This document shows positions 41,506 to 57,790 of a stretch of DNA of 61,029 nt, piece after piece. Under the pieces are notes generated by a model. It did no database searches. It had not been told where the DNA came from and worked only from the letters and a program-made list of their open reading frames with translations. The DNA is from Marinifilum caeruleilacunae. GTDB taxonomy: Bacteria; Bacteroidota; Bacteroidia; Bacteroidales; Marinifilaceae. The position numbers and the translations under genes are program-made. The DNA is taken from assembly GCF_013141825.1 (NCBI RefSeq), contig NZ_RZNH01000016.1:41360-102388 (forward strand), read 5' to 3'. How positions within the stretch are numbered: the first letter of the stretch is position 1; each line of letters begins with the position of its first letter.

Positions 41506-42549
41506 TTAATTTTTGGTAGATCCTCTAACAATTAAATTGGTTTTAACCACTTTGGTTACTGGTTCGTAATCCATATCCCCTTCGGTAATTCGCCCCACCA
41601 GTAATTCACTGGCTCTTAATCCAACTTCGTATCCATGTTGTTCCAATGTTGTTAGGGCCGGGTCGGATGTTCTGGAAACCACACCATCGGTAAAACCAAT
41701 AATCGATATATCCTCTGGAACTTTGAAACCTGCTTTCTTAACAACCGACAATGCGCCAGCAGCAGTAAGTTCGTTCACCGCAAATATTGCATCTGGTGGA
41801 TTTGGTAACCTTAATAAGTCGGGAGTCTTTTCAATGGCTTCTTCAAAACTATCGCATTTAATGATCAGATCTTCATCAACCGATAGCTTATGCTTCAAAA
41901 GTGCCTGTCTGTATCCTTTCTGACGATTTTGCCCTAAAAGCATGTGTTGGGGAGCCGACAAATGAGCAATTCTTTTGCAGCCAGTATTAATCAAATGTTC
42001 TACTGCTGAAAAAGCACCTGCGAAATCATCCACAATTACATTGTCGGAAGAGAGTTCGTTACACACCCTATCGAAAAACACAATTGGAATTCCATTGTCC
42101 CTTAACTCCTTAAAGTGGCTAAAATCATTGGTTTCTTTCGACATGGAAACCAACACGCCATCCACCCTACTCGACAATAGGGCTTGAACATTGGCCATCT
42201 CTCTTTCATAGGATTCGTTAGACTGGAACATCATTACATTGTAACCTGCCTCGTGTGCAATCTTTTCGATCCCACTAATAACAGATGAGAAGAAATGATG
42301 AACAATTTCAGGAATAATTACCCCAATAACATTTGATTTGCTATGTCTTAAGCTAAGAGCTACGGCATTGGGTTTGTAGTGCCACTTCTTTGCCAATTCA
42401 TTTACAGCTTCTTTAGTTTTAGAACTGATATCCGGATGATCTTTTAAAGCTCTGGACACCGTAGAGGCAGAAATGCCTAATTCTTTTGCGATATCTTTAA
42501 TTGTAACCTGGCCGCTTCTCATAGATATTTTAGTGAGTTTGTAAATCAA
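41506..42549 (-). CDS. LacI-family transcriptional regulator
   Basis: A 347-residue regulator. The helix-turn-helix is VTIKDIAKELGISASTVSRAL with the hinge KKWHYKPNAVALSLR, followed by a periplasmic-binding-protein-like effector domain (about 75-345). ATG at codon 10 (MRSGQVTIKDIA) is a likely alternative start. It lies between the two arms of the alpha-glucan locus, and matching LacI-type operators occur before both. A maltooligosaccharide is the expected effector. The upstream placement of the sites fits activation as well as repression. Confidence 0.94.
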   Translation of the reverse strand: MIYKLTKISMRSGQVTIKDIAKELGISASTVSRALKDHPDISSKTKEAVNELAKKWHYKPNAVALSLRHSKSNVIGVIIPEIVHHFFSSVISGIEKIAHEAGYNVMMFQSNESYEREMANVQALLSSRVDGVLVSMSKETNDFSHFKELRDNGIPIVFFDRVCNELSSDNVIVDDFAGAFSAVEHLINTGCKRIAHLSAPQHMLLGQNRQKGYRQALLKHKLSVDEDLIIKCDSFEEAIEKTPDLLRLPNPPDAIFAVNELTAAGALSVVKKAGFKVPEDISIIGFTDGVVSRTSDPALTTLEQHGYEVGLRASELLVGRITEGDMDYEPVTKVVKTNLIVRGSTKN

Positions 42550-42951: not shown

Positions 42952-45924
42952 ATGGAACTTAACATTAGTATGCTAAGAAAACTGCTTCTCATGCTTGTTA
43001 CGGTTTTTTCTTTTACCGTTTTGCAAGCACAGGAAAAGGCAGTTAGTGGTACTGTTACCGATGCAAACGATGGCATGGGTATACCTGGTGTTTCCGTTGT
43101 AGTTAAAGGTACCACTGTTGGTACAACTACAGACATTGACGGAAATTATATGCTTAATGTCGATGCGAATTCTACACTTGTATATTCATTTGTGGGATAT
43201 AAGACACAAGAAATATTAGTTGGGGAACAAACTCAAATTAATGTTGTTTTAAGTGTTGAAACCGAAAACCTTTCCGAAGTGGTTGTGATTGGTTACGGTC
43301 AAGTGAAAAAAGATGATGCAACAGGATCTGTAACTGCTATTTCTTCAGACGACTTTAACAAAGGAGCAATTACATCTCCACAGGAATTACTTTCTGGTAA
43401 AACTGCTGGTGTTCAAATTACATCTGGTGGTGGTGCTCCTGGTGCTGGTTCTACAATTCGTATCCGTGGTGGTTCTTCATTATCTGCTAGTAACGATCCT
43501 TTATTCGTTATCGATGGTGTACCTGTAGATACTGAAGGTATTAACGGTATGAGAAACCCTTTAAATACAATTCACCCATCTGATATTGAAACATTCACTG
43601 TATTAAAAGATGCATCAGCAACTGCAATTTACGGTTCTCGTGCTTCGAACGGTGTAATCATTATTACCACTAAAAAAGGTAAAAAAGGTGGTGATCTTAA
43701 AGTAGGTTACAATGGTTATTTCTCGGTAAGCACCAGATCAGACGAAATTGATGTATTGGATGCTACTGCATACAGAGAGTTGTTCACTCAACAATTTGGT
43801 GATAACCCAAATGCTACAGCCTTACTTGGAAATGCTGATACTGACTGGCAAGATGAAATTTTCCAGACTGCTATTAGCCATGACCACAATGTAAGCTTAA
43901 CGGGTGGTATTAAAGGTGTTCCTTTCAGAGCTTCTATTGGTTACACTGATCAGGAAGGTATTTTAAAAACTTCTGAATTACAACGTAACACTGCTTCTGT
44001 TGGATTTAGCCCAAGTTTATTTGATGATCACTTAAAAATTAATGTGAACCTGAAAGGGATGTACATTGATAACAGATTCGCAGATACAGGTGCGATTGGT
44101 TCTGCAATTGCTTACGATCCAACTCAGCCAGTATTTGATGAAACAAGTCCATACGGTGGATACCACACCTGGACAGTAGGTAGTACTGGCGATCCTGTAG
44201 ATATCGCAACTACCAACCCACTTGCTCTTTTACAGATGCGTAAGGATGAGTCAACTGTAAAAAGAAGCATTGGTAATGCACAGTTTGATTACAAAATGCA
44301 TTTCCTACCTGAATTGAAAGCAAACTTAAATGTTGGTTACGATTACTCAAAGAGTGATGGAACAATCTTTGTTCCTGAGAATGCTTCTTGGGAGTACGAC
44401 GCTCAAAACGGTGGTGGTGTAGACAGAGAATATTCTCAGTCGAAACGTAACAAACTACTTGATTTCTATTTTAACTACGTAAAAGATCTAGATCAGATCG
44501 ACAGTAGAGTTGATGCAATGGTTGGTTACTCATGGCAGCATTTCTGGAGAAGTGAACAAACTTACCAGACTAACGTTGCAGGTACAATTGTAGACAACGA
44601 TACTGATAACAGAACAGAAAACTATTTGGTTTCTTTCTTTGGTCGTTTGAACTACTCTTTCAAAGATCGTTACCTATTAACTTTAACAGTTAGACGTGAT
44701 GGTTCATCTCGTTTCGCTGATGGTAACAAATGGGGTACTTTCCCTTCAGCAGCTTTCGCATGGAAAGTGAACGAAGAAGCATTCCTTAAAAATGTTGATG
44801 TTGTTTCTGACCTTAAATTAAGATTAGGTTACGGTGTAACTGGTCAGCAAAATATTACTTCAAACGATTATCCATACTTGAACAGCTACACTTATAGTGA
44901 AGCGAATGCACAATACCAGTTTGGTGACAAATTTGTAACAACACTTCGTCCATCTGGATACGATGTAAACATCAAGTGGGAGGAAACTACAACTTATAAT
45001 GCCGGTTTAGATTTTGGTTTATTCAACAACAGAATTACTGGTGCTGTTGATGTATACTACAGAAAAACCGAAGACCTATTGAATACAATTCCTGTGGCAG
45101 CAGGTACGAACCTTACCAACCAAATTCTTACCAACGTTGGTGATTTGGAAAACAAAGGTATCGAATTCGAAATCAATACTCGTCCAATCTCTACTCCTGA
45201 TTTATTCTGGGAAGTTGGATTCAATGTAACTTACAACAAAAACAAAATTACCAAATTAACTGCTGTTGATGATCCTAACTATTTAGGTGTTGCTACTGGT
45301 GGTATTTCTGGTGGTGTAGGTAACAATGCACAAATCCATAGTGTAGGACATGCTTCTAACTCATTCTTCGTATGGGAGCAGGTATATGATGCAAATGGAA
45401 AACCAATTGAAGGACTTTATGTAGACCGTAATGGCGATGGTGAAATTACTGAAGATGACAAATACCATTACAAAAAAGCAGCTCCTTCAGTTTATTTAGG
45501 ATTCTCTTCTAAGTTATCTTATAAGAATTGGGATTTCAGTTTTGCTGGTAGAGCAAACTTCAACAACTACGTATACAATAACGTAGACTCTAACGCAGGT
45601 GTTCCTGGACAAATGTATTATTCTGCAGGTTACCTGACTAACGTTACTGAAGATGCTTTAAATACCGGTTTTAACAGAGCTCAGTATCTTTCAGATTACT
45701 ATGTTCAAGACGGTTCCTTCTTAAAGCTTGACAATATTACATTAGGTTACAACTTTAATGAAGTATTTAATGGCAAAGGAAACATCAGACTTTACACAAC
45801 TGTACAGAATGTATTCACAATTACAGATTACGAAGGGCTAGATCCTGAAGTAAGCAGTGGTATCGATAACAACATCTATCCACGTCCAAGAACATTCTTG
45901 TTAGGTGTAAACATTGATTTTTAA
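42952..45924 (+). CDS. SusC-type TonB-dependent outer-membrane transporter
   Basis: A 990-residue SusC/RagA protein. Signal peptide (about 1-26; ATG at codon 7 is an equally good start), a carboxypeptidase-like N-terminal domain (28-105), TonB-box region SEVVVIGYGQVKKDD, plug (about 115-225, with IRIRGGSSLSASNDPLFVIDG and VLKDASATAIYGSRASNGVI) and a 22-strand barrel ending in a typical LGVNIDF. It imports maltooligosaccharides with SusD as lid. First gene of susC-susD-susE, 22 bases before susD. Codon choice is more uniform than in neighbours, fitting strong expression. Confidence 0.96.
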   Translation: MELNISMLRKLLLMLVTVFSFTVLQAQEKAVSGTVTDANDGMGIPGVSVVVKGTTVGTTTDIDGNYMLNVDANSTLVYSFVGYKTQEILVGEQTQINVVLSVETENLSEVVVIGYGQVKKDDATGSVTAISSDDFNKGAITSPQELLSGKTAGVQITSGGGAPGAGSTIRIRGGSSLSASNDPLFVIDGVPVDTEGINGMRNPLNTIHPSDIETFTVLKDASATAIYGSRASNGVIIITTKKGKKGGDLKVGYNGYFSVSTRSDEIDVLDATAYRELFTQQFGDNPNATALLGNADTDWQDEIFQTAISHDHNVSLTGGIKGVPFRASIGYTDQEGILKTSELQRNTASVGFSPSLFDDHLKINVNLKGMYIDNRFADTGAIGSAIAYDPTQPVFDETSPYGGYHTWTVGSTGDPVDIATTNPLALLQMRKDESTVKRSIGNAQFDYKMHFLPELKANLNVGYDYSKSDGTIFVPENASWEYDAQNGGGVDREYSQSKRNKLLDFYFNYVKDLDQIDSRVDAMVGYSWQHFWRSEQTYQTNVAGTIVDNDTDNRTENYLVSFFGRLNYSFKDRYLLTLTVRRDGSSRFADGNKWGTFPSAAFAWKVNEEAFLKNVDVVSDLKLRLGYGVTGQQNITSNDYPYLNSYTYSEANAQYQFGDKFVTTLRPSGYDVNIKWEETTTYNAGLDFGLFNNRITGAVDVYYRKTEDLLNTIPVAAGTNLTNQILTNVGDLENKGIEFEINTRPISTPDLFWEVGFNVTYNKNKITKLTAVDDPNYLGVATGGISGGVGNNAQIHSVGHASNSFFVWEQVYDANGKPIEGLYVDRNGDGEITEDDKYHYKKAAPSVYLGFSSKLSYKNWDFSFAGRANFNNYVYNNVDSNAGVPGQMYYSAGYLTNVTEDALNTGFNRAQYLSDYYVQDGSFLKLDNITLGYNFNEVFNGKGNIRLYTTVQNVFTITDYEGLDPEVSSGIDNNIYPRPRTFLLGVNIDF

Positions 45925-45946: not shown

Positions 45947-48151
45947 ATGAAAATAAGATATATTAAACTCCTATCGTTTTCCGTATTAGCCGTTCTTTTG
46001 GCTTTTACGTCTTGTACCGACGATCTGGATACGTTACCAATTGATGATGATGTACAATCTTCTGCAAGTGTTTATGAAGATCCGGCATCATACGAACAAG
46101 TATTAGCAAAATGTTATGCAGGTTTAGCTGTTTCAGGACAGGAAGGACCAGCTGGAAACTCAGATATTAGTGGTATTGATGAAGGTTTCGGACAGTACCT
46201 AAGAGGTTACTTCTACCTTCAGGAATTAACTACTGATGAAGCAATTATTGGTTGGAATGACCAAACCATTTATGACTTCCACGAGCAAGATTGGACATCT
46301 ACTGATGTATTCATGACTGCTTTCTATTACAGAGTATTCTATCAGGTATCACTTTGTAATGAGTTCATCAGAGAAACTACTGATGCGAAATTGGATGGTA
46401 GAGGTGTAAGTGGTGCACTAAGAACTGATGTTGAGTACTACAGAGCTGAAGCAAGATTCCTTAGAGCTTTAAGTTATTTCCACGCAATTGATATGTTTGG
46501 AAATGTACCTTTCGTTACTGAAGAAGATGCTGTAGGTTCATTCTCACCAGAGCAAATTTCAAGAGCAGACCTTTTCACTTACATCGAAAGTGAATTGTTA
46601 GATATCGAAGACAAGTTAATGGCTCCTTTGGCAAATGTTTATGGTCGTGTTGATCAGGCTGCTGCCTGGATGTTATTGTCTAAATTGTACCTAAATGCAG
46701 AAGTTTACACCGGTACTCCTAGATACAACGATGTAATTACTTACACTGAAAAAATCAACACTTCTGGTTATGCTTTGGATGCTGATTACGATCACCTTTT
46801 CTTAGCTGATAACCATACTGCTGATGGTGTTATCTTCCCAATTACTTACGACGGAATTAACACATTAACATACGGTGGTACTTCATTTATTATTCACGCT
46901 GCAACTGGTGGTAGCATGACTCCAACCGACTACGGTATTTCTGGTGGTTGGGCTGGTTTAAGAACCACAAGTGCTTTGGTTGACAAATTTATCGATATCG
47001 AAACTTTAAAGTCGACTACATTAGGTACTAAAGCAGCTGTGAATGGTTCGTATCCTGTTGTTTATGTTCCTGGAGCACACCAGGGATGGGATCCATCTAT
47101 CGACACTACAGTTCTTGCATCGGTTAACGACGATGGAAACTACGAAGGTTACCTTTGGTTTGCTGACGACAACAATGAGTTTAAAATTAACGAAACTCCA
47201 AGCTGGGATGTGAACTATGGTGATGATGGTGCTGATGGTACTTTAGATGCAGGTGGTTCTAATATCGTTGCTGGAACAGCAGGTTATTACAAAATCAATG
47301 CAAATTTAAATGACCTAACATACACAATCCAAAGAACCGATTGGGGACTAATTGGTAGTGCAACTCCTGGTGCATGGGATAATGACACTGATATGACATT
47401 TGACCCTGCTACTGAAAGCTGGACATTGGTTGTTGACCTTGTTCCTGGTGAAATCAAATTCCGTGCGAACGACGATTGGGCTCTTAACTACGGTGATAGC
47501 AATGGCGACGGCATTCTTGAAGAAGGTGGTGACAACATCGCAATTACTGTTGGTGGTGCTTACTTAATTACCATGAAATTAGGTGCTGGTGACTATACTT
47601 TCTCTGCAGAAAGACAACCATATGACAGAAGAAGCATGTTCTATACCGATGGTCAGACTCTTGAAATTGCTAACGTAGGTGAATTTACCGAAGGTTATGC
47701 AATCACTAAATTCAAGAATATCGATCAGAATGGTAACCCAGGACAAAGTCTTGACTATCCTGATACTGATTTCCCAATGTTCCGTTTGGCAGATTCATAC
47801 CTAATGTATGCTGAAGCTGTATTACGTGGTGGAAACGGTACAAGTACAAAAGCGCTTGAATACGTAAATAACGTTAGAGAAAGAGCTTACCAGGATCCTG
47901 CAGGTCACATTTCTCAAGGAGAACTTACTTTAGATTTCATTCTTGACGAAAGAGCAAGAGAATTCTACTGGGAGTGTTCAAGAAGAACCGACCTTGTAAG
48001 ATTCGGACAGTTTAGTGATGGAACATACGTATGGCCTTGGAAAGGTGGCGTTGCGGAAGGTATTGCTGTTGACAGCAAGTTCAACCTATTCCCAATTCCA
48101 GCTGATGATTTGGCAGCGAATCCAAACCTTCAACAAAATCAGGGTTACTAG
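45947..48151 (+). CDS. SusD-type lipoprotein with inserted tandem SusE-like binding modules
   Basis: A 734-residue SusD/RagB surface lipoprotein (C23 in AFTSC), about 190 residues longer than ordinary SusD. Residues 24-350 give the usual helical repeat core (YYRAEARFLRALSYFHAIDMFGNVPFV, RVDQAAAWMLLSKLYLNAEVY, SGGWAGLRTTSALVDKF). The core resumes at about 559 (DRRSMFYTDGQ ... FPMFRLADSYLMYAEAVLRGG ... LDERAREFYWECSRRTDLVRF). Between them, residues about 366-558 form two modules that match the two C-terminal modules of SusE, encoded next: WGLIGSATPGAWDNDTDM and IKFRANDDWALNYGD. These SusE/F-type modules normally bind starch at the cell surface. The protein thus looks like a SusD carrying its own extra glucan-binding sites. 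Confidence 0.9.
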   Translation: MKIRYIKLLSFSVLAVLLAFTSCTDDLDTLPIDDDVQSSASVYEDPASYEQVLAKCYAGLAVSGQEGPAGNSDISGIDEGFGQYLRGYFYLQELTTDEAIIGWNDQTIYDFHEQDWTSTDVFMTAFYYRVFYQVSLCNEFIRETTDAKLDGRGVSGALRTDVEYYRAEARFLRALSYFHAIDMFGNVPFVTEEDAVGSFSPEQISRADLFTYIESELLDIEDKLMAPLANVYGRVDQAAAWMLLSKLYLNAEVYTGTPRYNDVITYTEKINTSGYALDADYDHLFLADNHTADGVIFPITYDGINTLTYGGTSFIIHAATGGSMTPTDYGISGGWAGLRTTSALVDKFIDIETLKSTTLGTKAAVNGSYPVVYVPGAHQGWDPSIDTTVLASVNDDGNYEGYLWFADDNNEFKINETPSWDVNYGDDGADGTLDAGGSNIVAGTAGYYKINANLNDLTYTIQRTDWGLIGSATPGAWDNDTDMTFDPATESWTLVVDLVPGEIKFRANDDWALNYGDSNGDGILEEGGDNIAITVGGAYLITMKLGAGDYTFSAERQPYDRRSMFYTDGQTLEIANVGEFTEGYAITKFKNIDQNGNPGQSLDYPDTDFPMFRLADSYLMYAEAVLRGGNGTSTKALEYVNNVRERAYQDPAGHISQGELTLDFILDERAREFYWECSRRTDLVRFGQFSDGTYVWPWKGGVAEGIAVDSKFNLFPIPADDLAANPNLQQNQGY

Positions 48152-48175: not shown

Positions 48176-49252
48176 ATGAAAAAAATAAGTTTTCTATTAA
48201 TTGCAGTTTTCGGGATGTTTATCCTGAACTCTTGTAGCGATGAAGATTTTGATCCGGTTGTGGAGGTAACTAGCACTCCTACGATTTCAGCTCCTGCATC
48301 CGGTGCATCATATGTTCTTACTGAAGCGAATGCCGCTGAGGTTTTTGAAACATTCACATGGAGTGCTGCCGATTTTGGTTTCCAGGCAGCAACCTCTTAC
48401 GCGGTTCAAATTGATAATGCTGGTAACGGTTTTGCTGATGCATTAACTATTGGATCTACTAATGAATTAACATTTAGCCTTACAAATGGTGATATGAACC
48501 AAAAATTGTTGGCCTTTGGTGTTCCTTACGGTGCTCCTGCCAGCATGGAAATGAGAGTTGTTGCTAGCATTTCTGATTTGGTTGATCAGGTTGTATCAGA
48601 AACAATTGCTTTCACAGTAACGCCTTACGAGGTTGTAATTGTTTATCCAAGCTTATACGTTCCTGGAAATTACCAGGCAGCTAGTGGATACAGTGCTGGC
48701 GACTGGTCTCCAGACACTGCTCCTGAGATTCACTCAATTAAGAGTAATGATGTTTACGAAGGTTTCATTTATCTAACCAACGCAAACTCTGAGTTTAAGT
48801 TTACAACTGAACCAAACTGGGATTTCGCTTATGGTGATGATGGTGCTGATGGTACTTTGGAATCAGACAATGCAGCGAATATTGTTGTTGCTGATCCAGG
48901 TATGTACAAACTTGATGTAGATGTTCCTAATTTAACATACACAGTAACTGCAGCGAATTTCGGTGTAATTGGTAGTGGAACTCCTACAGGTTGGGATTCT
49001 GATACCGATATGACCTGGGATCCAGCAAATCAGGTTCTAACAGTAACATTAGACATTGCTGCTGATGGTGAAGGTAACCGTCAGATTAAGTTCCGTGCGA
49101 ACGACGATTGGGCAATTAACTACGGTGATACCGACAGAAACGGTACGCTTGTAGCAGGTGGAGAAAACATCGATGTTCCATCGGATGGTAACTACACCAT
49201 TACTTTAGATCTTAATGGTCCTGTATACAGATACACGCTTACAAAGAACTAA
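48176..49252 (+). CDS. SusE-type outer-membrane starch-binding lipoprotein
   Basis: A 358-residue surface lipoprotein (C20 in FILNSC): N-terminal SusE domain (about 25-150, PTISAPASGASYVLTEANAAEVFETFTWSAADFG) followed by two SusE/F-type binding modules (about 155-258 and 259-358). These include FGVIGSGTPTGWDSDTDM and IKFRANDDWAINYGD. Such proteins hold starch at the cell surface for SusCD. The last two modules are nearly the same as the insert in the preceding SusD. It follows susD by 24 bases and ends the susCDE transcript at a strong terminator. Confidence 0.92.
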   Translation: MKKISFLLIAVFGMFILNSCSDEDFDPVVEVTSTPTISAPASGASYVLTEANAAEVFETFTWSAADFGFQAATSYAVQIDNAGNGFADALTIGSTNELTFSLTNGDMNQKLLAFGVPYGAPASMEMRVVASISDLVDQVVSETIAFTVTPYEVVIVYPSLYVPGNYQAASGYSAGDWSPDTAPEIHSIKSNDVYEGFIYLTNANSEFKFTTEPNWDFAYGDDGADGTLESDNAANIVVADPGMYKLDVDVPNLTYTVTAANFGVIGSGTPTGWDSDTDMTWDPANQVLTVTLDIAADGEGNRQIKFRANDDWAINYGDTDRNGTLVAGGENIDVPSDGNYTITLDLNGPVYRYTLTKN

Positions 49253-49339: not shown

Positions 49340-52300
49340 ATGAAGAAAATTTACACATATATCCTTTTTGTTTTGCTATTGCTGCCAACAATAGTACAAG
49401 CTCAAATTACAACCAATCCTGAATTCCCAAATGTTAATTCTGAAATCACAATTACATTTGATTCATCACAGGAATCCAGGTTAGGAACATTCTCGGGAGA
49501 TCTTTACGCTCATACAGGTGTACTGATTGAAGGGAATACAGAATGGCAACATGTTATTGGCTCGTGGGGAGATAACACGGCACAACCTCAGTTAACCAAC
49601 AACAACGATGGTACCTACACTTTGGTTATTACTCCTAATATTACTGATTTTTATTCCGTTCCAGGCAATGAGGTTGTTAGACAAATGGCCTTTGTATTTC
49701 GCTCGGCAGACGGAAGCCAGCAAACCGATGACATTCTTGTTGATGTTTACGATGAAGGCTTGGTGGTAACATTCGATGCTCCTTCGGATAATGAAATGAT
49801 CGCCAAAAATGAAGTACTACAGGTTGAAATTAAGTCAAATATCAGCGAAAGCTTAAGCCTTTACCTTGATGATGTACTGGTTGAAACAACCACTACCGAA
49901 CAAGAAATTAATACCACCGTACAAAGCAATGTTGCGGGAACTCACAAGTTAGAAGCTGTAGCTGTTTCGGGTTCAGAGGAAGTACGAAAAACCATCAATT
50001 TTTACGTACGTGAAGATGTGGTAATTGAAGATATGCCAGCAGGCATTATCGAAGGGATCAACTATATCGATGACAATACTGTAACTTTGGCAATGTATGC
50101 ACCTAATAAGGACTTTGCATTCGTGATTGGTGATTTTACAAATTGGGAAATCAACAATAACTATCAGCTGAAAAAAGATGAAGATTATTTTTGGATTACC
50201 ATCGACAACCTTACTGCAGGACAAGAGTATGTTTTCCAGTATCTTATCGACGGTAATGTGAAAATTGCTGATCCATATGCCGACAAATTATTGGATCCTT
50301 GGAACGATCAGTATATTTCAGATACTACCTACCCGAACTTAATTCCTTATCCTTCGGATAAAACAAGTGAAATTGCAAGTGTTCTTCAGACCGGACAAAC
50401 TGCCTTTAACTGGACCGACTCACAATTTAGCATGCCAGCCGAAGAAGATCTTGTGATTTACGAACTTCATGTGAGAGATTTTGTGGCATCTGGCGACATT
50501 AAAACCGTTACCGATACATTGGATTACCTACAATCTTTAGGTGTAAATGTAATTGAACTAATGCCATTTAACGAGTTTGAGGGCAACGATTCATGGGGAT
50601 ATAACCCATCTTTCTACTTTGCTCCTGATAAGGCTTACGGAACAAAAAACGACTATAAAAACTTTATTAACGAGTGTCATAATCGTGGAATTGCAGTTTT
50701 CATGGATATGGTATTGAACCATACCTACGGACAATCGCCATTTTTAAGAATGTATTTCGATGGCTCGCGTCCTACTGCTGATAATCCATGGTACAACCAG
50801 GAGCATAACTTCCAAAACACTGATGCTCACTGGGGATACGACATTAATCACGAAAGTGCTGCAACGCAAAAGTTGGTAGATCGTATCAATGCATACTGGA
50901 TGAACGAATACCACATTGATGGTTTCCGTTTTGATTTTACCAAAGGTTTCTCGAACAAATCACATCCAAATAGTGGATCGGACGTATGGGGAAGCGATTA
51001 CGATGCCGATAGAATTAGATTATTGAAGAGAATGGCTGATGAAATTTGGGCCGTTAAATCGGATGCAGTGGTGATATTTGAGCACTTATCAGAGAATTCG
51101 GAAGAAAAAGAACTGGCTGCTCACGGAATCATGTTATGGGGCAATGCCAACCACGATTACAGCGAAGCATCTATGGGTTACTCGTCGAGCTTAAATAGCG
51201 TATCGTGGAAAAACAGAACATGGGATGGCCCCAAGTTGGTAAGTTATATGGAAAGTCATGACGAAGAGAGAATGATGTACCGCAACCTGAATTTTGGTAA
51301 CTCTGCAGGCGATTACAATGTAACTGAACTGAATACCGCATTGGCAAGAGTAGAAGCTGCCGCAGCTTTCTTTTTCACCATTCCTGGTCCGAAAATGATT
51401 TGGCAGTTTGGAGAACTGGGTTACGATTTCTCTATTGATGAAAATGGTCGTGTAGGTAGAAAACCAATTCGTTGGGATTACTACGACAACACCAACAGAA
51501 AAAGATTATATGATGTGTTTTCTTCTCTTATCGATATCAAGATAAACGAAGTTGCATTTGAATCGAATGATTTTGTTTTGAATACGGGTAGCTTCCTAAA
51601 ACGCATCGAAATTAACCATAGCGATATGGATGTTCGCGTAATTGGAAACTTCGATGTTGAAGAAGGGGAAATCGATCCAAACTTCAGTCAGACAGGAAGT
51701 TGGTACGATTATTTTAGTGGTCAGGAAATCAGCGTAAGCGATGTAAATGCAAAAATTACATTGGCTCCTGGAGAATATCATATTTACACTACAAAGCAAT
51801 TAACAACTCCTGATGTTGCTTCTGCTCCATTGGCATCTAATGTAAGCATTAGCGGAACATTCAGAGAAGATGAAGTGTTAACGGCAAGCTATACTTATTC
51901 TGATGTAAATAACGATTTGGAAGGCACATCGACCTACCAGTGGTACAGAGCCGAAGATGCAAATGGAACCAATGAAGTGGCCATTAGCGGTGCTACAGAT
52001 TTAACTTACACACTTGCAAGAGCCGACAGGGCAAACTTTGTACGCTTTTCGGTGACTCCGGTGGCACAAACTGGCGAATTATTAACTGGTAATACGGTTT
52101 ATAGTGCATATACCGATGAAATTGCATACTCAACTGGAATTGATGATGTATTGGCAAAAGAGCTAAAACTTTATCCTAATCCGGTGAAAGATATTCTTCA
52201 CCTTGCGAATATGAACCAGGTAAGCAATGTTCATATTTACACAGCTAACGGAATGCTTGTAAGAAGTATTGCTGCACCTAATTCGTCGGAAGAAATCAAT

Positions 52301-52387
52301 CTAGGCAATTTAGCAAGCGGTACCTATTTAATGGTTTTTGAAATGGAAGATCGTTCGAAATTGACCAGAAAAATCATAAAGCAGTAA
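49340..52387 (+). CDS. Multi-domain GH13 alpha-amylase with T9SS sorting domain
   Basis: A 1015-residue secreted amylase. Order: signal peptide (1-21), N-terminal starch-binding-like sandwich (22-140), Ig-like domain (about 145-225), CBM48/E-set domain (about 230-325, VTLAMYAPNKDFAFVIGDFTNW), GH13 barrel (about 365-760) and C-terminal sandwich. These are followed by an Ig-like domain (about 830-925, TYQWYRAEDANG) and a type A sorting domain (about 942-1015, LKLYPNPVKDILHLAN ... GTYLMVFE). The triad is Asp in GFRFDFTKGF, Glu in VVIFEHLSEN and Asp in YMESHDEERMM. It should be exported by type IX secretion and anchored or released at the surface to start starch breakdown, taking the place of lipoprotein SusG. 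Confidence 0.93.
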   Translation: MKKIYTYILFVLLLLPTIVQAQITTNPEFPNVNSEITITFDSSQESRLGTFSGDLYAHTGVLIEGNTEWQHVIGSWGDNTAQPQLTNNNDGTYTLVITPNITDFYSVPGNEVVRQMAFVFRSADGSQQTDDILVDVYDEGLVVTFDAPSDNEMIAKNEVLQVEIKSNISESLSLYLDDVLVETTTTEQEINTTVQSNVAGTHKLEAVAVSGSEEVRKTINFYVREDVVIEDMPAGIIEGINYIDDNTVTLAMYAPNKDFAFVIGDFTNWEINNNYQLKKDEDYFWITIDNLTAGQEYVFQYLIDGNVKIADPYADKLLDPWNDQYISDTTYPNLIPYPSDKTSEIASVLQTGQTAFNWTDSQFSMPAEEDLVIYELHVRDFVASGDIKTVTDTLDYLQSLGVNVIELMPFNEFEGNDSWGYNPSFYFAPDKAYGTKNDYKNFINECHNRGIAVFMDMVLNHTYGQSPFLRMYFDGSRPTADNPWYNQEHNFQNTDAHWGYDINHESAATQKLVDRINAYWMNEYHIDGFRFDFTKGFSNKSHPNSGSDVWGSDYDADRIRLLKRMADEIWAVKSDAVVIFEHLSENSEEKELAAHGIMLWGNANHDYSEASMGYSSSLNSVSWKNRTWDGPKLVSYMESHDEERMMYRNLNFGNSAGDYNVTELNTALARVEAAAAFFFTIPGPKMIWQFGELGYDFSIDENGRVGRKPIRWDYYDNTNRKRLYDVFSSLIDIKINEVAFESNDFVLNTGSFLKRIEINHSDMDVRVIGNFDVEEGEIDPNFSQTGSWYDYFSGQEISVSDVNAKITLAPGEYHIYTTKQLTTPDVASAPLASNVSISGTFREDEVLTASYTYSDVNNDLEGTSTYQWYRAEDANGTNEVAISGATDLTYTLARADRANFVRFSVTPVAQTGELLTGNTVYSAYTDEIAYSTGIDDVLAKELKLYPNPVKDILHLANMNQVSNVHIYTANGMLVRSIAAPNSSEEINLGNLASGTYLMVFEMEDRSKLTRKIIKQ

Positions 52388-52591: not shown

Positions 52592-54034
52592 TTATTTCAC
52601 TGTAAGTTCCAACCGGTATTTTATTTCAGAATCACCTGGCTGCATAATTAGTTTATAATCGCCGGGAACCAGTGGTTCGTCGGGCATCGATACTTTAAAC
52701 ACAAATGGTGATTCTCCGTAATATCCCATCTGCTCTCTTACCAATTGTTCCTTGCTATCGAATATTTTCAGATTTAATTCGCTATTCATAAACTGCTTTA
52801 AATGAAATTGCACAAAAACATTCTCCGATTCTGAGTAGTAGTATTCCTGATCGGCTCCCATAAACTCTTCCCGCTCCTGCTTATTGTTTTCATTTAAATC
52901 GATAAAGCCAGTGAAGAAAAAGAAGCCTTCCTGTCCTTTAGAAAATTCAGGAGCCAGATTTTCTACATTCTCTTTTACATTCATTGCCATTTGTGGAGCT
53001 TCAGGAATCTCCTCTGTTACTTCTTCCAGTTCAGGACTCTCTTCTGTCGTTTCTGCTGCAACAACATCATCTGTTTTCACGATATTGGCAATGGAATCTC
53101 CAATTTGTACCAGCAGTCGGTATTGTATCGGATTTTTCACGCCCATCGAGGCAGTAATCATATATTCTCCTTCGGGTACTTTTTTCAATACTCGCAAAAA
53201 CTGGTTTCCTACATTCACAGTATCTTCCTTCATGGTATAGTGTTGCAAACTGTCCATTTTTGAAATGTTCATGGCAATCATATCATAGGTCGAATTCCAA
53301 ACCTGGTATACCACCATATTATCGTTCATCGGAAGATTTAAACCTACTTCAAAATCTACCTTGCCAAGTTCAAATTGCCTTTCATCGAGTCCAATTACTT
53401 CGGCACTATCCAATCTCATGTCTCCATCTTCATCAATCCACTCTTTAAAAAGATGAAAACTTTCGGGCAGGAGTTTCTTTCTAATTTTAGCAAAAGCATT
53501 TCCGTTGGGCTCCTTTATCAGGAAACTGATTTGATAGGTTTTCCCAGATTCGGCAGGATTAACGGTCATAATGTACTCTCCTACTGGCAGAAAAGCATCG
53601 AAATTGGAGTAGGTAAACAACGGTTTCGAGGTATAATTTTTTCGTACGGTTCGAATCAAATTCCCGCTGGTATCCCAAATTCTAAGTTTAAGATTTGTTC
53701 CCTCTTTAATGGCAGGGTCGTTAAGTGAGGCGCTTATGGATTCTCCTTTTGAGTAGGAGCTTTTTCCAAGGCCAAAAAACTCGTTTCGTTCTACAATTTC
53801 ATTTTCGTTTAAATCTACCCATTTATTGTAGGCAAACAGCCCAATGGGGATTCCATTTTGGTACGTTTTATCCTGTTCTTGCGGCTCTACTTTATCGGCA
53901 GAACTTAATTCATCTTTTGGGAGAGAATCTTGAATAAATTGATCCTGAGCACTTACAATTAAAGTTGTGCCAACCAGTATGGCAAGTATCAAATAACACC
54001 TACCAATAATACATTTCATCTTTTTGTATATCAT
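52592..54034 (-). CDS. Exported protein with three EF-hand-like repeat units, unknown function
   Basis: Not a family I recognise. The 480-residue protein has a hydrophobic signal (about 10-29, ending VSAQ) and three related units of about 110-130 residues. Each unit begins with a phrase like FxxFxxWxDxNENxxxxRxEFxGL, then a beta-rich half with LKLRIWDTSGNLIR-type and GEYIMTVNP-type phrases. Each has a textbook EF-hand loop: DLNENEIVERNE (74-85), DEDGDMRLDSAE (201-212) and DLNENNKQEREE (379-390). A Glu/Pro/Thr-rich linker (about 323-362) separates units 2 and 3. A calcium-binding periplasmic or surface protein is likely; its link to the neighbouring glucan genes is only positional. Confidence 0.8.
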   Translation of the reverse strand: MIYKKMKCIIGRCYLILAILVGTTLIVSAQDQFIQDSLPKDELSSADKVEPQEQDKTYQNGIPIGLFAYNKWVDLNENEIVERNEFFGLGKSSYSKGESISASLNDPAIKEGTNLKLRIWDTSGNLIRTVRKNYTSKPLFTYSNFDAFLPVGEYIMTVNPAESGKTYQISFLIKEPNGNAFAKIRKKLLPESFHLFKEWIDEDGDMRLDSAEVIGLDERQFELGKVDFEVGLNLPMNDNMVVYQVWNSTYDMIAMNISKMDSLQHYTMKEDTVNVGNQFLRVLKKVPEGEYMITASMGVKNPIQYRLLVQIGDSIANIVKTDDVVAAETTEESPELEEVTEEIPEAPQMAMNVKENVENLAPEFSKGQEGFFFFTGFIDLNENNKQEREEFMGADQEYYYSESENVFVQFHLKQFMNSELNLKIFDSKEQLVREQMGYYGESPFVFKVSMPDEPLVPGDYKLIMQPGDSEIKYRLELTVK

Positions 54035-54349: not shown

Positions 54350-57300
54350 TTAACTTACTAATCTGCTTTTAGGCTTTTGTGCCGTAAGCATTTCTTTGGT
54401 TTTGATATCAAGTTTTGATTCTTTCTCCTCTGGCTGCGTAATTTCATCGGCAGCTTGTTTAGAATCGCCAGCCAGGCTATACAATCCGCGAAGAAGCATC
54501 TCATATTTTTCTTCGGCCGAAATGGCAGCAAAAGCAGCTTTTTTCTCTTCGATGATACGTTGTTTTTCTGTCTCTTCGGCATTTACTTTAGCATAGTAGG
54601 CATCAGCTTTTCTATTGCGAAGGAAAGGACCTGCTACGCTTGGAAACAATTCAAGCAGAAGCATTTCTTTTTCGTTCTCGGCTAGTTTCATGCCTCCAAA
54701 CTCATGCAAAACAGGATTTTCTGGCGATTGATATTTGTTCACATCAAAATCGCTGGCTTCACTTTGTCCACAAATCTTATGACGGAAATCTGGGTCAATA
54801 TCAATTGGAGTTTCGCCATATTCTCCTTTCACAAGATTAAAGAATTGGTTGTTCACATTTGTGTATGGCGCCTTACCGCTGTTTACATCTAAAACGTAGT
54901 TTACAGCCTGCACACCTACAATTTGTGATGATGGCGTTACCAAAGGAGGACAACCGGCAGCAACTCGTACTTCAGGCACTTTTTCCAAAACTGTTGGAAG
55001 AAGATCTTCTAGTCCCAAAGCTTTTAGCTGTGCCAACATGTTGGTATACATTCCACCTGGTATTTCGGCAGCCTTCACCTCTTCGTTTGCAGCCGGGAAG
55101 TTGAAGAATTTCTCGATGGCATGGCAAGTAGCCAGGAGCTCTTCTTCTTTATCGGCCTTTGCCAGTTCAATGGCTTTATCGAACAGGGCATCAATCTCTT
55201 TTGGAAGATAATCAGCAGTAATATCAAACTCAAGTGGGAACATTTTGTAAGAATCGAACTCAGCAATTCTCTCACGAATTCCCTTCAGCTCTTTGTTAAT
55301 GGCAACAACCGATTCTAAATTCACACCGGTATCTAAACCTAACTTATCTGCAAAAATCTGTATCAATTCGAATGAAGGTGCAGCCGGACCACCTGCAAAA
55401 TTCAACATACAGGTATCTACCACATCAACACCATTTACGATCGCCATTAATACAGCTCCCAAACCATAACCTGGCGTACAATGAGTATGAAAATCGATTG
55501 GCAGATTGGTTTCTTTCTTCAAACGCTTTACAATCTTACCTGATAATGATGGTGGAATTAAACCAGCCATATCTTTCACGGTAATCATATCAGCGCCAAG
55601 CGCTTCCATTTGCTTTGCTTTATTTACGAAATAATCTACATCGAATATTTTCTTCGGCAATTTTTTACCCGATAAAAGTGCTTTCCATCTTTGTTTTTTG
55701 GTGAATTTTGGATCTACCGTATAACAAACTGCACAGTCGGCAATGCCTCCTGCTTCTTTCATATACTTTATGGTGGTTTCCATGTTCTTCACATCGTTCA
55801 AACAATCGAAAATACGCATGATTCCCAGTCCCGATTTCACAGCATTCTTATTGAAACCTTCGATTACCGATTCAGGATATGGAGAGTAACCAAACAGGTT
55901 TCTACCTCGCGATAATGCGGTTAGGTGTGAAACATCGCCAATTACCTCTTTAATGGACTCTAAGCGATGCCATGGATCTTCGTTCAAGTAACGCATTACC
56001 GAATCGGGAATTGCACCCCCCCAAACTTCTAATGCATAAAAGTTTGCATCTTTATACAAAGGCAGAACCTTTTCGATTTCGTGCTGAGGTACACGGGTTG
56101 CAAAGAGTGATTGCTGACCATCGCGCAATGTAAGGTCACGAATTTTTAGTTTGCCTGTTCTTTTAATTGCAGCTCTCTCGGCAGCAATTTTTCCACGATT
56201 CTCTTCTCTTTTGGATTCGAATTCAGCTTTTCGCTTTCCTTCAAGATATCCTTTTGCCACCAACGGGAATAGCTCCAGTAGCATGTACTCCTTATCGTCG
56301 ACAGCCAATTTTACATTGCCGTACTGAGGCAATTGCGGATTTTCTGGTGCCTGATAATTGCTTACATCATAATCTTGTCTTTCTGCATTGCCCGTTATTT
56401 TCTCACGAAATTCGGGAGCAATTTCGATAGGAGTTGTTCCATACTCTCCTTTTACCAGGCTAAAAAACTGGTTGGATACATTGGTATAGAACGGGCGACC
56501 TGAGTTCTCGTCGATCACACAGTTTACGGCCTGTACACCTACAATTTGTGAAGAAGGGGTAACCAATGGCGGACAACCAGCGTCCAATCGAACCACTGGC
56601 ACCACTTCTAACACTCTCTCAAGCAGGGTTTCCAAACCTAAAGCTTTCAACTGGTTTAGCATGTTTGTGTACATGCCACCAGGAATTTCCGCCTTCTTAA
56701 CCATTTCGTTAGGAGCCGGGAAATTAAAATATTTTTCAATTGCATGACAAGCATTTAAAAGCTCTGCTTCCTGATCAGCCTTAGCATATTCAATTGCATC
56801 ATCAAACAGTTTATCGATATTGGCTGGTAGCTTGTCTTTTGTAATGTCAAATTCAATTGGGAATTGCTTATAGCTGTCTACTTCAGCCAAAGCATTGGCA
56901 CGAATCTCTTTCAGTATTTTATTAATTTCAACTACTGTTTTCGCATCACCATCCAGTTCAATGCCCATTTTCTGGCAGAACAGGTAAATCAATTCGTAAG
57001 CCGGAGCTGCAGAGCCACCTGCGAAGTTCATGATATTGGTATCAATAATATCAACCCCATTTACAATGGCGCTGAGCGCCGATGCCAAACCATAACCTGG
57101 CGTGGAATGCGAATGAAAATCAACAGGAATACTTAACTCTTCTTTAAAACGGCGGATGATCAAACCAGCACGTGAAGGAGAAGCCAATCCTGCCATATCC
57201 TTTAGGGAAATCATATCAGCGCCAAGCGTTTCTAATTTTTTGGCTAGATTTACAAAGTAATCCACATCAAAAATCTGATCGGGAAGGTTTTTAATCGTTA

Positions 57301-57790
57301 GTCGCTCACGATCTTCTTCTTTTTCAGGAAATTTCGAATCTACGGTATAACAAACAGCGCAATCGGCCATACCACCAGCTGCTTTCACATACTTAATGGT
57401 CGACTTCATGTTCTCTATATCATTCAAACAATCGAAAATACGCATAATGCCCAAGCCCGATTTTACCGCTTGTGTATTAAATTTCTCGATTACTGATTCG
57501 GGATAAGGACTGTAACCGAAAAGATTTCGTCCGCGAGATAAGGCCGTAAGTTTGGAAACATTGCCAATCTCCTTTTTAATGGACTCCAATCGGTACCATG
57601 GATCCTCGTTTAAATAACGCATTACAGAATCAGGAACAGCACCACCCCATACTTCCATCGCATAAAAGTTTGCCTTTTTATACAAGTGCAGAACTTTTTC
57701 TATTTCTGCCTGTGGCATTCTGGTCGCAAAAAGAGATTGCTGGCCATCTCTTAACGTTAGATCTCTAACTAATAATTTCCTTTTCTTCAT
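54350..57790 (-). CDS. Tandem-duplicated biotin-dependent carboxyltransferase subunit
   Basis: A 1146-residue protein made of two nearly complete copies of one carboxyltransferase (oxaloacetate decarboxylase alpha, pyruvate carboxylase B or transcarboxylase 5S type). Copy 1 spans about 5-520 and copy 2 about 547-1060. Both start with RDLTLRDGQQSLFATR and share CLND..NM.TIKY, CAVCYTVD, NFPA.NE and AGCPPLVTPSSQIVGVQAVN. Each keeps the metal site: D15, K197 (carbamylated in the family), H226 and H228 in copy 1; D557, K739, H768 and H770 in copy 2. There is no biotin-attachment motif anywhere. A charged, helical extension (1060-1146) ends the protein. It should use carboxybiotin on a separate carrier to carboxylate or decarboxylate a 2-oxo acid such as oxaloacetate/pyruvate. 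A single subunit is normally about 500-600 residues. Confidence 0.9.
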   Translation of the reverse strand: MKKRKLLVRDLTLRDGQQSLFATRMPQAEIEKVLHLYKKANFYAMEVWGGAVPDSVMRYLNEDPWYRLESIKKEIGNVSKLTALSRGRNLFGYSPYPESVIEKFNTQAVKSGLGIMRIFDCLNDIENMKSTIKYVKAAGGMADCAVCYTVDSKFPEKEEDRERLTIKNLPDQIFDVDYFVNLAKKLETLGADMISLKDMAGLASPSRAGLIIRRFKEELSIPVDFHSHSTPGYGLASALSAIVNGVDIIDTNIMNFAGGSAAPAYELIYLFCQKMGIELDGDAKTVVEINKILKEIRANALAEVDSYKQFPIEFDITKDKLPANIDKLFDDAIEYAKADQEAELLNACHAIEKYFNFPAPNEMVKKAEIPGGMYTNMLNQLKALGLETLLERVLEVVPVVRLDAGCPPLVTPSSQIVGVQAVNCVIDENSGRPFYTNVSNQFFSLVKGEYGTTPIEIAPEFREKITGNAERQDYDVSNYQAPENPQLPQYGNVKLAVDDKEYMLLELFPLVAKGYLEGKRKAEFESKREENRGKIAAERAAIKRTGKLKIRDLTLRDGQQSLFATRVPQHEIEKVLPLYKDANFYALEVWGGAIPDSVMRYLNEDPWHRLESIKEVIGDVSHLTALSRGRNLFGYSPYPESVIEGFNKNAVKSGLGIMRIFDCLNDVKNMETTIKYMKEAGGIADCAVCYTVDPKFTKKQRWKALLSGKKLPKKIFDVDYFVNKAKQMEALGADMITVKDMAGLIPPSLSGKIVKRLKKETNLPIDFHTHCTPGYGLGAVLMAIVNGVDVVDTCMLNFAGGPAAPSFELIQIFADKLGLDTGVNLESVVAINKELKGIRERIAEFDSYKMFPLEFDITADYLPKEIDALFDKAIELAKADKEEELLATCHAIEKFFNFPAANEEVKAAEIPGGMYTNMLAQLKALGLEDLLPTVLEKVPEVRVAAGCPPLVTPSSQIVGVQAVNYVLDVNSGKAPYTNVNNQFFNLVKGEYGETPIDIDPDFRHKICGQSEASDFDVNKYQSPENPVLHEFGGMKLAENEKEMLLLELFPSVAGPFLRNRKADAYYAKVNAEETEKQRIIEEKKAAFAAISAEEKYEMLLRGLYSLAGDSKQAADEITQPEEKESKLDIKTKEMLTAQKPKSRLVS

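Follow-up and report, generated by a model that had tools for sequence, protein, structure and literature searches.

We examined a window of 61,029 nucleotides (nt) of Marinifilum caeruleilacunae DNA (assembly GCF_013141825.1, contig NZ_RZNH01000016.1, positions 41,360 to 102,388 of the forward strand), and all coordinates below are those of this window. The gene in question is a susD, which sits downstream of an adjacent susC and upstream of susE in the open reading frames of the window, and whose product carries two SusE-type modules inside its core. The features of susD and susE are as follows.

45947..48151, plus strand: susD with the insert, a single open frame for a lipoprotein of 734 amino acids (aa), core residues about 1 to 350 and 558 to 734
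46997..47041, plus strand: entry linker of the SusD insert, residues 351 to 365, of low confidence (predicted local distance difference test [pLDDT] below 50)
47042..47332, plus strand: insert module 1, X25/SusE type, residues about 366 to 462, with W381, K413, W420, and N439
47333..47620, plus strand: insert module 2, SusF_SusE/X25 type, residues about 463 to 558, with W477, K504, W511, and N530
47216..47244, plus strand: 29-base run in the susD insert, identical to susE 48830-48858
47459..47481, plus strand: 23-base run in the susD insert, identical to susE 49091-49113
48176..49252, plus strand: susE, 358 aa, an N-terminal SusE domain and two X25-type modules

The core of the protein was recognized by the families SusD_RagB (117.2 bits, cutoff 23.1) and SusD-like_3 (35.2 bits, cutoff 27). 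Solved SusD structures from Bacteroides vulgatus (3jys) and Bacteroides thetaiotaomicron (3ck7) match it only outside the insert, up to residues 348 to 350 and again from residues 558 to 572. An earlier note, made from the DNA letters alone, had described a 734-residue SusD interrupted at about residues 366 to 558, and both the open frame and these alignments agree with it. Against insert-free SusDs the extra stretch amounts to about 206 residues, because the low-confidence entry linker is counted with the insert. The core of the predicted model gave template modeling scores, normalized by target, of 0.90 with 3jys and 0.83 to 0.84 with the B. thetaiotaomicron SusD. Cys23, invariant in 50 of 50 aligned SusDs, is taken as the lipid-modified cysteine. 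The starch-site residues of the B. thetaiotaomicron protein, which we take to be D73, R81, W98, N101, Y296, and W320 (identities that fit the 3ck7 chain at an offset of 24), align with D78, R86, W103, D105 (for the asparagine), the tyrosine of a TYGG motif, and W335 in the window SusD, and five of the six positions are invariant in the 50 aligned SusDs. An assembly or frame artifact was considered and ruled out, the frame being open and the same layout recurring in 19 other genomes of the phylum and order draws described below.

Family profiles, sequence, and predicted fold all identify the insert as two SusE-type (X25) modules in tandem within the SusD core. In the full-length protein, Pfam placed X25_BaPul_like at residues 376 to 438 (27.1 versus 27 bits) and SusF_SusE at 468 to 581 (51.9 versus 27.5 bits); with the insert alone as the query the two scored 33.1 and 54.8 bits. 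A hidden Markov model (HMM) of the modules placed them at residues 369 to 461 and 464 to 551 of SusD, and at 157 to 257 and 261 to 353 of SusE, which has the same two families in addition to PF14292 (91 bits). That N-terminal SusE domain is absent from the SusD and insert listings at E values up to 0.1, so the insert consists of modules only. Insert and SusE modules are collinear, with 84 of 202 alignment columns identical (42%). As a single-sequence query against the PDB the insert gave no match at E values up to 5, and as a profile its sole match was BT3088 (E value of 0.0002). In the predicted model, where module 1 has a pLDDT of 94.9, the insert forms a beta-sandwich like that of SusE and SusF, and module 2 matches SusF, SusE, and X25-2 of Sca5. 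The collinearity with the C-terminal modules of SusE that the earlier note had pointed out is upheld by the alignment, and its SusE-like reading by the family profiles and the predicted fold. Each module has two tryptophans, W381 and W420 in the first and W477 and W511 in the second. The tryptophan, lysine, and asparagine positions are near-fixed across families, all four glucan-stacking tryptophans are retained in 18 of 20 double inserts from the phylum and order draws, and both modules are intact in all 20.

The same arrangement was found in many other genomes. A draw of 395 genomes across the phylum, of which 104 matched at E values up to 1e-40, gave two modules in the window and two further genomes and one module in 11, and a draw across the order (393 genomes, 136 with a match) gave two modules in 17 further genomes and another locus cut by a contig end. 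Within the window's family, 26 other genomes out of 56 had a match at E values up to 1e-60, and the matches listed have open frames of at most 572 aa; the five same-genus genomes all belong to this set, their SusD frames being 524 to 526 aa long. One SusD relative from the family survey (G410:C11:2735396-2736391) has one in-frame TGA. A named-collection survey covered the best 80 of 518 relatives, so that its counts are lower bounds: at least 47 loci with two modules (5 at contig ends), at least one with three, and at least nine with one (two at contig ends), besides 21 with none and two without a SusD. The two-module records include Prolixibacteraceae, Lentimicrobium, Mariniphaga, Saprospiraceae, Chitinophagales, and Neolewinella aurantiaca, and those with one module include Rhodohalobacter halophilus, Flavobacteriales ALC-1, and a Polaribacter metagenome-assembled genome (MAG); these single modules occupy the same SusD loop. 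With all surveys pooled, at least 63 nonidentical loci, the window included, carry two or more modules in SusD. The three-module SusD, from a Prolixibacteraceae MAG (L179, 5026-7587), is 853 aa long with all three in the same loop, and in two SusDs of 613 aa (L052 and L053) that loop holds some 80 aa of different sequence, unmatched by the module HMM. The earlier note knew of no described SusD of this form and would have counted an insert both widespread and already described against its reading; the insert is indeed widespread, and no description of a SusD with such a module insert was found in the open-access PMC literature. The component parts, SusD and X25 modules, are already known, and it is their combination in one lid that seems new.

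Neighboring genes were scored at 51 double-insert loci, a set that includes duplicate genomes and is not independent. An adjacent two-module SusE is kept at 40 of them, and at 10 there is no adjacent modular SusE, with a multimodule protein elsewhere in the locus. In those 10 (L039, L040, and the Saprospiraceae-type L168, L170, L174, L176, L177, L178, L183, and L192) the opposite strand encodes, farther upstream, a protein of three to five modules. Additional modules within 3.5 kb were seen at 1 of 51 double-insert and 6 of 48 insert-free loci, sets that hold duplicates and on which we base no claim.

The origin of the pair was traced in a tree built from both modules joined, with 20 inserts and 44 SusE pairs; SusEs with three modules were not included, nor were three rows in which SusE is long or incomplete (L117, L136, and L058). 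All 20 double inserts form one clade among the SusE pairs (98/73; 97% of 200 bootstrap trees). A pairing of the window insert with its own SusE was rejected by the approximately unbiased (AU) test (P = 0.021), and the window insert is 42% identical to its own SusE at the protein level versus 43 to 64% to ten foreign inserts. From these comparisons, the double-module graft looks old and shared by many Bacteroidota, not a recent local copy. In a tree of 166 modules, the f25 singles group with module 1 and three f7 singles with module 2 types. This hints at separate events for the single modules, and grafting may have happened repeatedly.

How the gene came to be in this genome can be approached from its neighbors, which are the following.

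41506..42549, minus strand: LacI-type regulator, intact left flank, the family name coming from a reading of the sequence and not from a family search
42952..45924, plus strand: susC, 990 aa, TIGR04056 at 828 bits, about the first 115 codons congener-like and the remainder nearer to other families
43250..43300, plus strand: putative left edge of the replaced cassette, where DNA identity to four congeners drops from 86 to 94% to 68 to 72%
49340..52387, plus strand: GH13 with CBM48 and a type IX secretion system (T9SS) tail, 1,015 aa

The locus region was compared with that of four of the five same-genus genomes. In all four, the LacI-type regulator is 94.4 to 96.2% identical and a major facilitator superfamily (MFS) transporter 94.2 to 94.4% identical. 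SusC is 61 to 62% identical to theirs, and their SusDs are insert-free and 49 to 51% identical to the window SusD over the half that aligns. GH13 is 66 to 68% identical overall, its N-terminal 300 aa being at about 47 to 63% and the rest mostly at 61 to 92%. Between SusD and GH13 the congeners encode two proteins, one of 363 aa in which a single module is detectable and one of 578 to 579 aa with three modules, whereas the window has SusE only. SusC itself is chimeric: residues 1 to 100 are 94 to 98% identical to three congeners versus 26 to 57% to five other relatives, beyond residue 100 other families are equally near or nearer than the congeners, and at the DNA level the identity with the congeners drops at about position 43,300, near codon 116. 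A foreign susC(barrel)-susD-susE cassette has probably replaced the insert-free version of the genus at the same site, and its right edge may lie within the first third of GH13. In a tree of SusD cores (78 rows, leaving out the duplicates L078 to L096, the truncated L094 among them, L059, and L062), the five same-genus genomes cluster with members of the family from other genera (100/100) and the window falls elsewhere, so that the recipient is likely to be the window. Misbinning is unlikely, since a single 102-kb contig spans both the flanks and the cassette.

We propose, at a probability of roughly two in three, that the gene encodes a starch-type SusD lid bearing a once-grafted X25 pair as a tethered alpha-glucan clamp, and that it arrived here in a foreign cassette. 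The proposal draws on what is set out above: how the protein is laid out and predicted to fold, which residues are conserved, where the insert occurs, the old shared origin of the two modules, a SusC that is chimeric, and flanks that are syntenic. A tandem SusE-type pair would have been grafted once, long ago, into the loop after the helix that follows the conserved starch-site W335, so that the lid would have gained another alpha-glucan site, held by a flexible tether, and retained its own starch site. SusD lids of levan utilisomes open and close, with a glycan-binding protein and a hydrolase on the SusC lip, according to the part of the source available (PMC7618045). In the Sas20/Sca5 system, the tandem X25 pair clamps one chain and binds maltoheptaose with submicromolar affinity, which single modules lack (PMC9112005, likewise available in part). 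By analogy, the clamp-like pair could hold a glucan chain near the GH13 and SusE gene products, and the lid, in opening and closing, could present chain ends or fragments to the SusD/SusC cavity; the tether might also retain the chain at the transporter between cuts. Binding and its affinity, the orientation of the pair on SusC and its position there, which the earlier note set at the transporter mouth, and the handover are inferred, as are the direction and mechanism by which the foreign susC(barrel)-susD-susE block would have replaced the insert-free version of the genus. A wider version of this proposal, tentative and falling somewhat short of an even chance, is that the SusD loop is a port into which one, two, or three SusE modules were grafted more than once, turning the lid into a capture arm that spread by susC(barrel)-susD-susE replacement, each recipient keeping its own N-terminal SusC domain.

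The earlier note had instead read the DNA likeness between insert and susE as a fairly recent copy or ongoing conversion. The identical runs of 29 and 23 bases are indeed there, as direct repeats in register and the longest in the codon alignment. In 5,000 simulations with the two proteins fixed and the codon usage of the window genes, a longest run of at least 29 arose in 0.52% and a second run of at least 23 in 0.06%, so the likeness exceeds what protein conservation alone predicts. Among 79 identical residues, methionine and tryptophan excluded, the same codon is used at 57, with 40.3 expected from the codon usage of the sus genes (z = 3.9). This is the highest value of all own pairs tested, the others lying at z of -1.0 to 2.6 (17 pairs) and -1.2 to 2.79 (32 pairs, with runs up to 23) in two overlapping sets. 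Part of the excess, however, lies beyond the two runs (z = 2.7), and the window insert also reaches z values of up to 3.1 with 19 foreign inserts (-1.3 to 3.1); with 24 foreign SusEs it gives -1.6 to 2.5, and the window SusE with the 19 foreign inserts -1.0 to 2.5. We see in this a modest sign of short exchange tracts with susE on top of an old homology, and the conversion half of the claim is weakly supported. A recent local copy is rejected on the insert clade (98/73) and the rejected pairing (P = 0.021), and recent copying or homogenizing conversion as the explanation is quite improbable, since the window insert groups with, and is closer in protein sequence to, foreign inserts.

A docking or assembly arm, holding SusE or GH13 at the transporter with no need for glucan binding, would suit the levan and dextran systems, which place a glycan-binding protein and hydrolase on the SusC lip (PMC7618045, in the part available), and also the adjacent SusE kept at 40 of 51 loci; it is nevertheless unlikely, as 10 of 51 loci have no adjacent SusE and the glucan-stacking tryptophans persist in 18 of 20 inserts. 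The least probable explanation is that the graft is a functionless passenger in a tolerant loop. The variability of the loop, with none to three modules or the unrelated 80 aa of L052 and L053, speaks for it, and the near-fixed tryptophan, lysine, and asparagine positions and the 20 of 20 intact module pairs speak against it.

Several results weigh against the tethered clamp and its single graft. The Shimodaira-Hasegawa-like approximate likelihood ratio (SH-aLRT) support of the insert clade is only 73. With module 1 alone (24 of 52 SusE module-1 rows, picked from the 166-module tree) the inserts were not resolved as one clade, the AU test giving P = 0.224 for a double-insert clade and 0.15 for a single origin of double inserts and f25 singles. 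A single clade of insert-bearing SusD cores is rejected (AU P = 0.0086) and the insert state takes eight changes on the core tree, so one has to suppose that the old pair was lost many times or was transferred. Both module 1 tryptophans are lost in 2 of 20 inserts (L039 and L040), the right edge of the cassette is blurred by a GH13 that is mostly nearer to the congeners, and the codon excess suggests some later local exchange with susE. The window SusD scores 442.8 bits and misses the cutoff of 725 for NCBIfam NF033071, an exception model for B. thetaiotaomicron-like SusD, and we do not claim it as a member of that narrow model.

Among known systems, the SusDs of B. thetaiotaomicron (3ck7 to 3ckc) and B. 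vulgatus (3jys) share the core fold, the aligned starch-site residues, and the position after susC, but have no loop modules, with about 60 and 13 residues, respectively, between the matched parts. B. thetaiotaomicron SusE and SusF (4fem, 4fch, and 4fe9) share the tandem X25-type modules and tryptophan pairs, but each is a lipoprotein of its own and has an N-terminal SusE domain, whereas the window pair lacks that domain and lies inside SusD. X25-2 of Ruminococcus bromii Sca5 and domain 2 of Sas20 (7rpy) likewise have two tandem X25 modules with four tryptophans, in Gram-positive amylosome proteins without a SusD core. Alpha-glucan SusDs of marine Flavobacteriia are also of the starch type, with looped and open variants set by a loop near the site; that loop has about 17 residues, and the part of the source available mentions no module insert (PMC11093988). 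In the Bacteroides starch model, capture (SusE and SusF) and lid (SusD) are separate proteins whose looseness of association is debated (PMC7618045, available in part). Here the capture modules are part of the lid itself, and this holds for many lineages. A natural experiment is available within the genus: site and regulator are the same, but one genome has the modules inside SusD and its congeners have them on a lipoprotein of their own, which makes it testable if capture has to be coupled to the lid. The chimeric SusC indicates how cassettes may be swapped while the recipient retains its own N-terminal domain.

Two genes beyond GH13 deserve mention. The one that follows it (52592-54034) encodes 480 aa with apparent internal repeats and is 83 to 84% identical in the three congeners covering it. 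Farther on, a 1,146-aa frame (54350-57790) has two halves that both start with a near-identical carboxyltransferase-like stretch (LRDGQQSLFATR), like tandem-fused copies.
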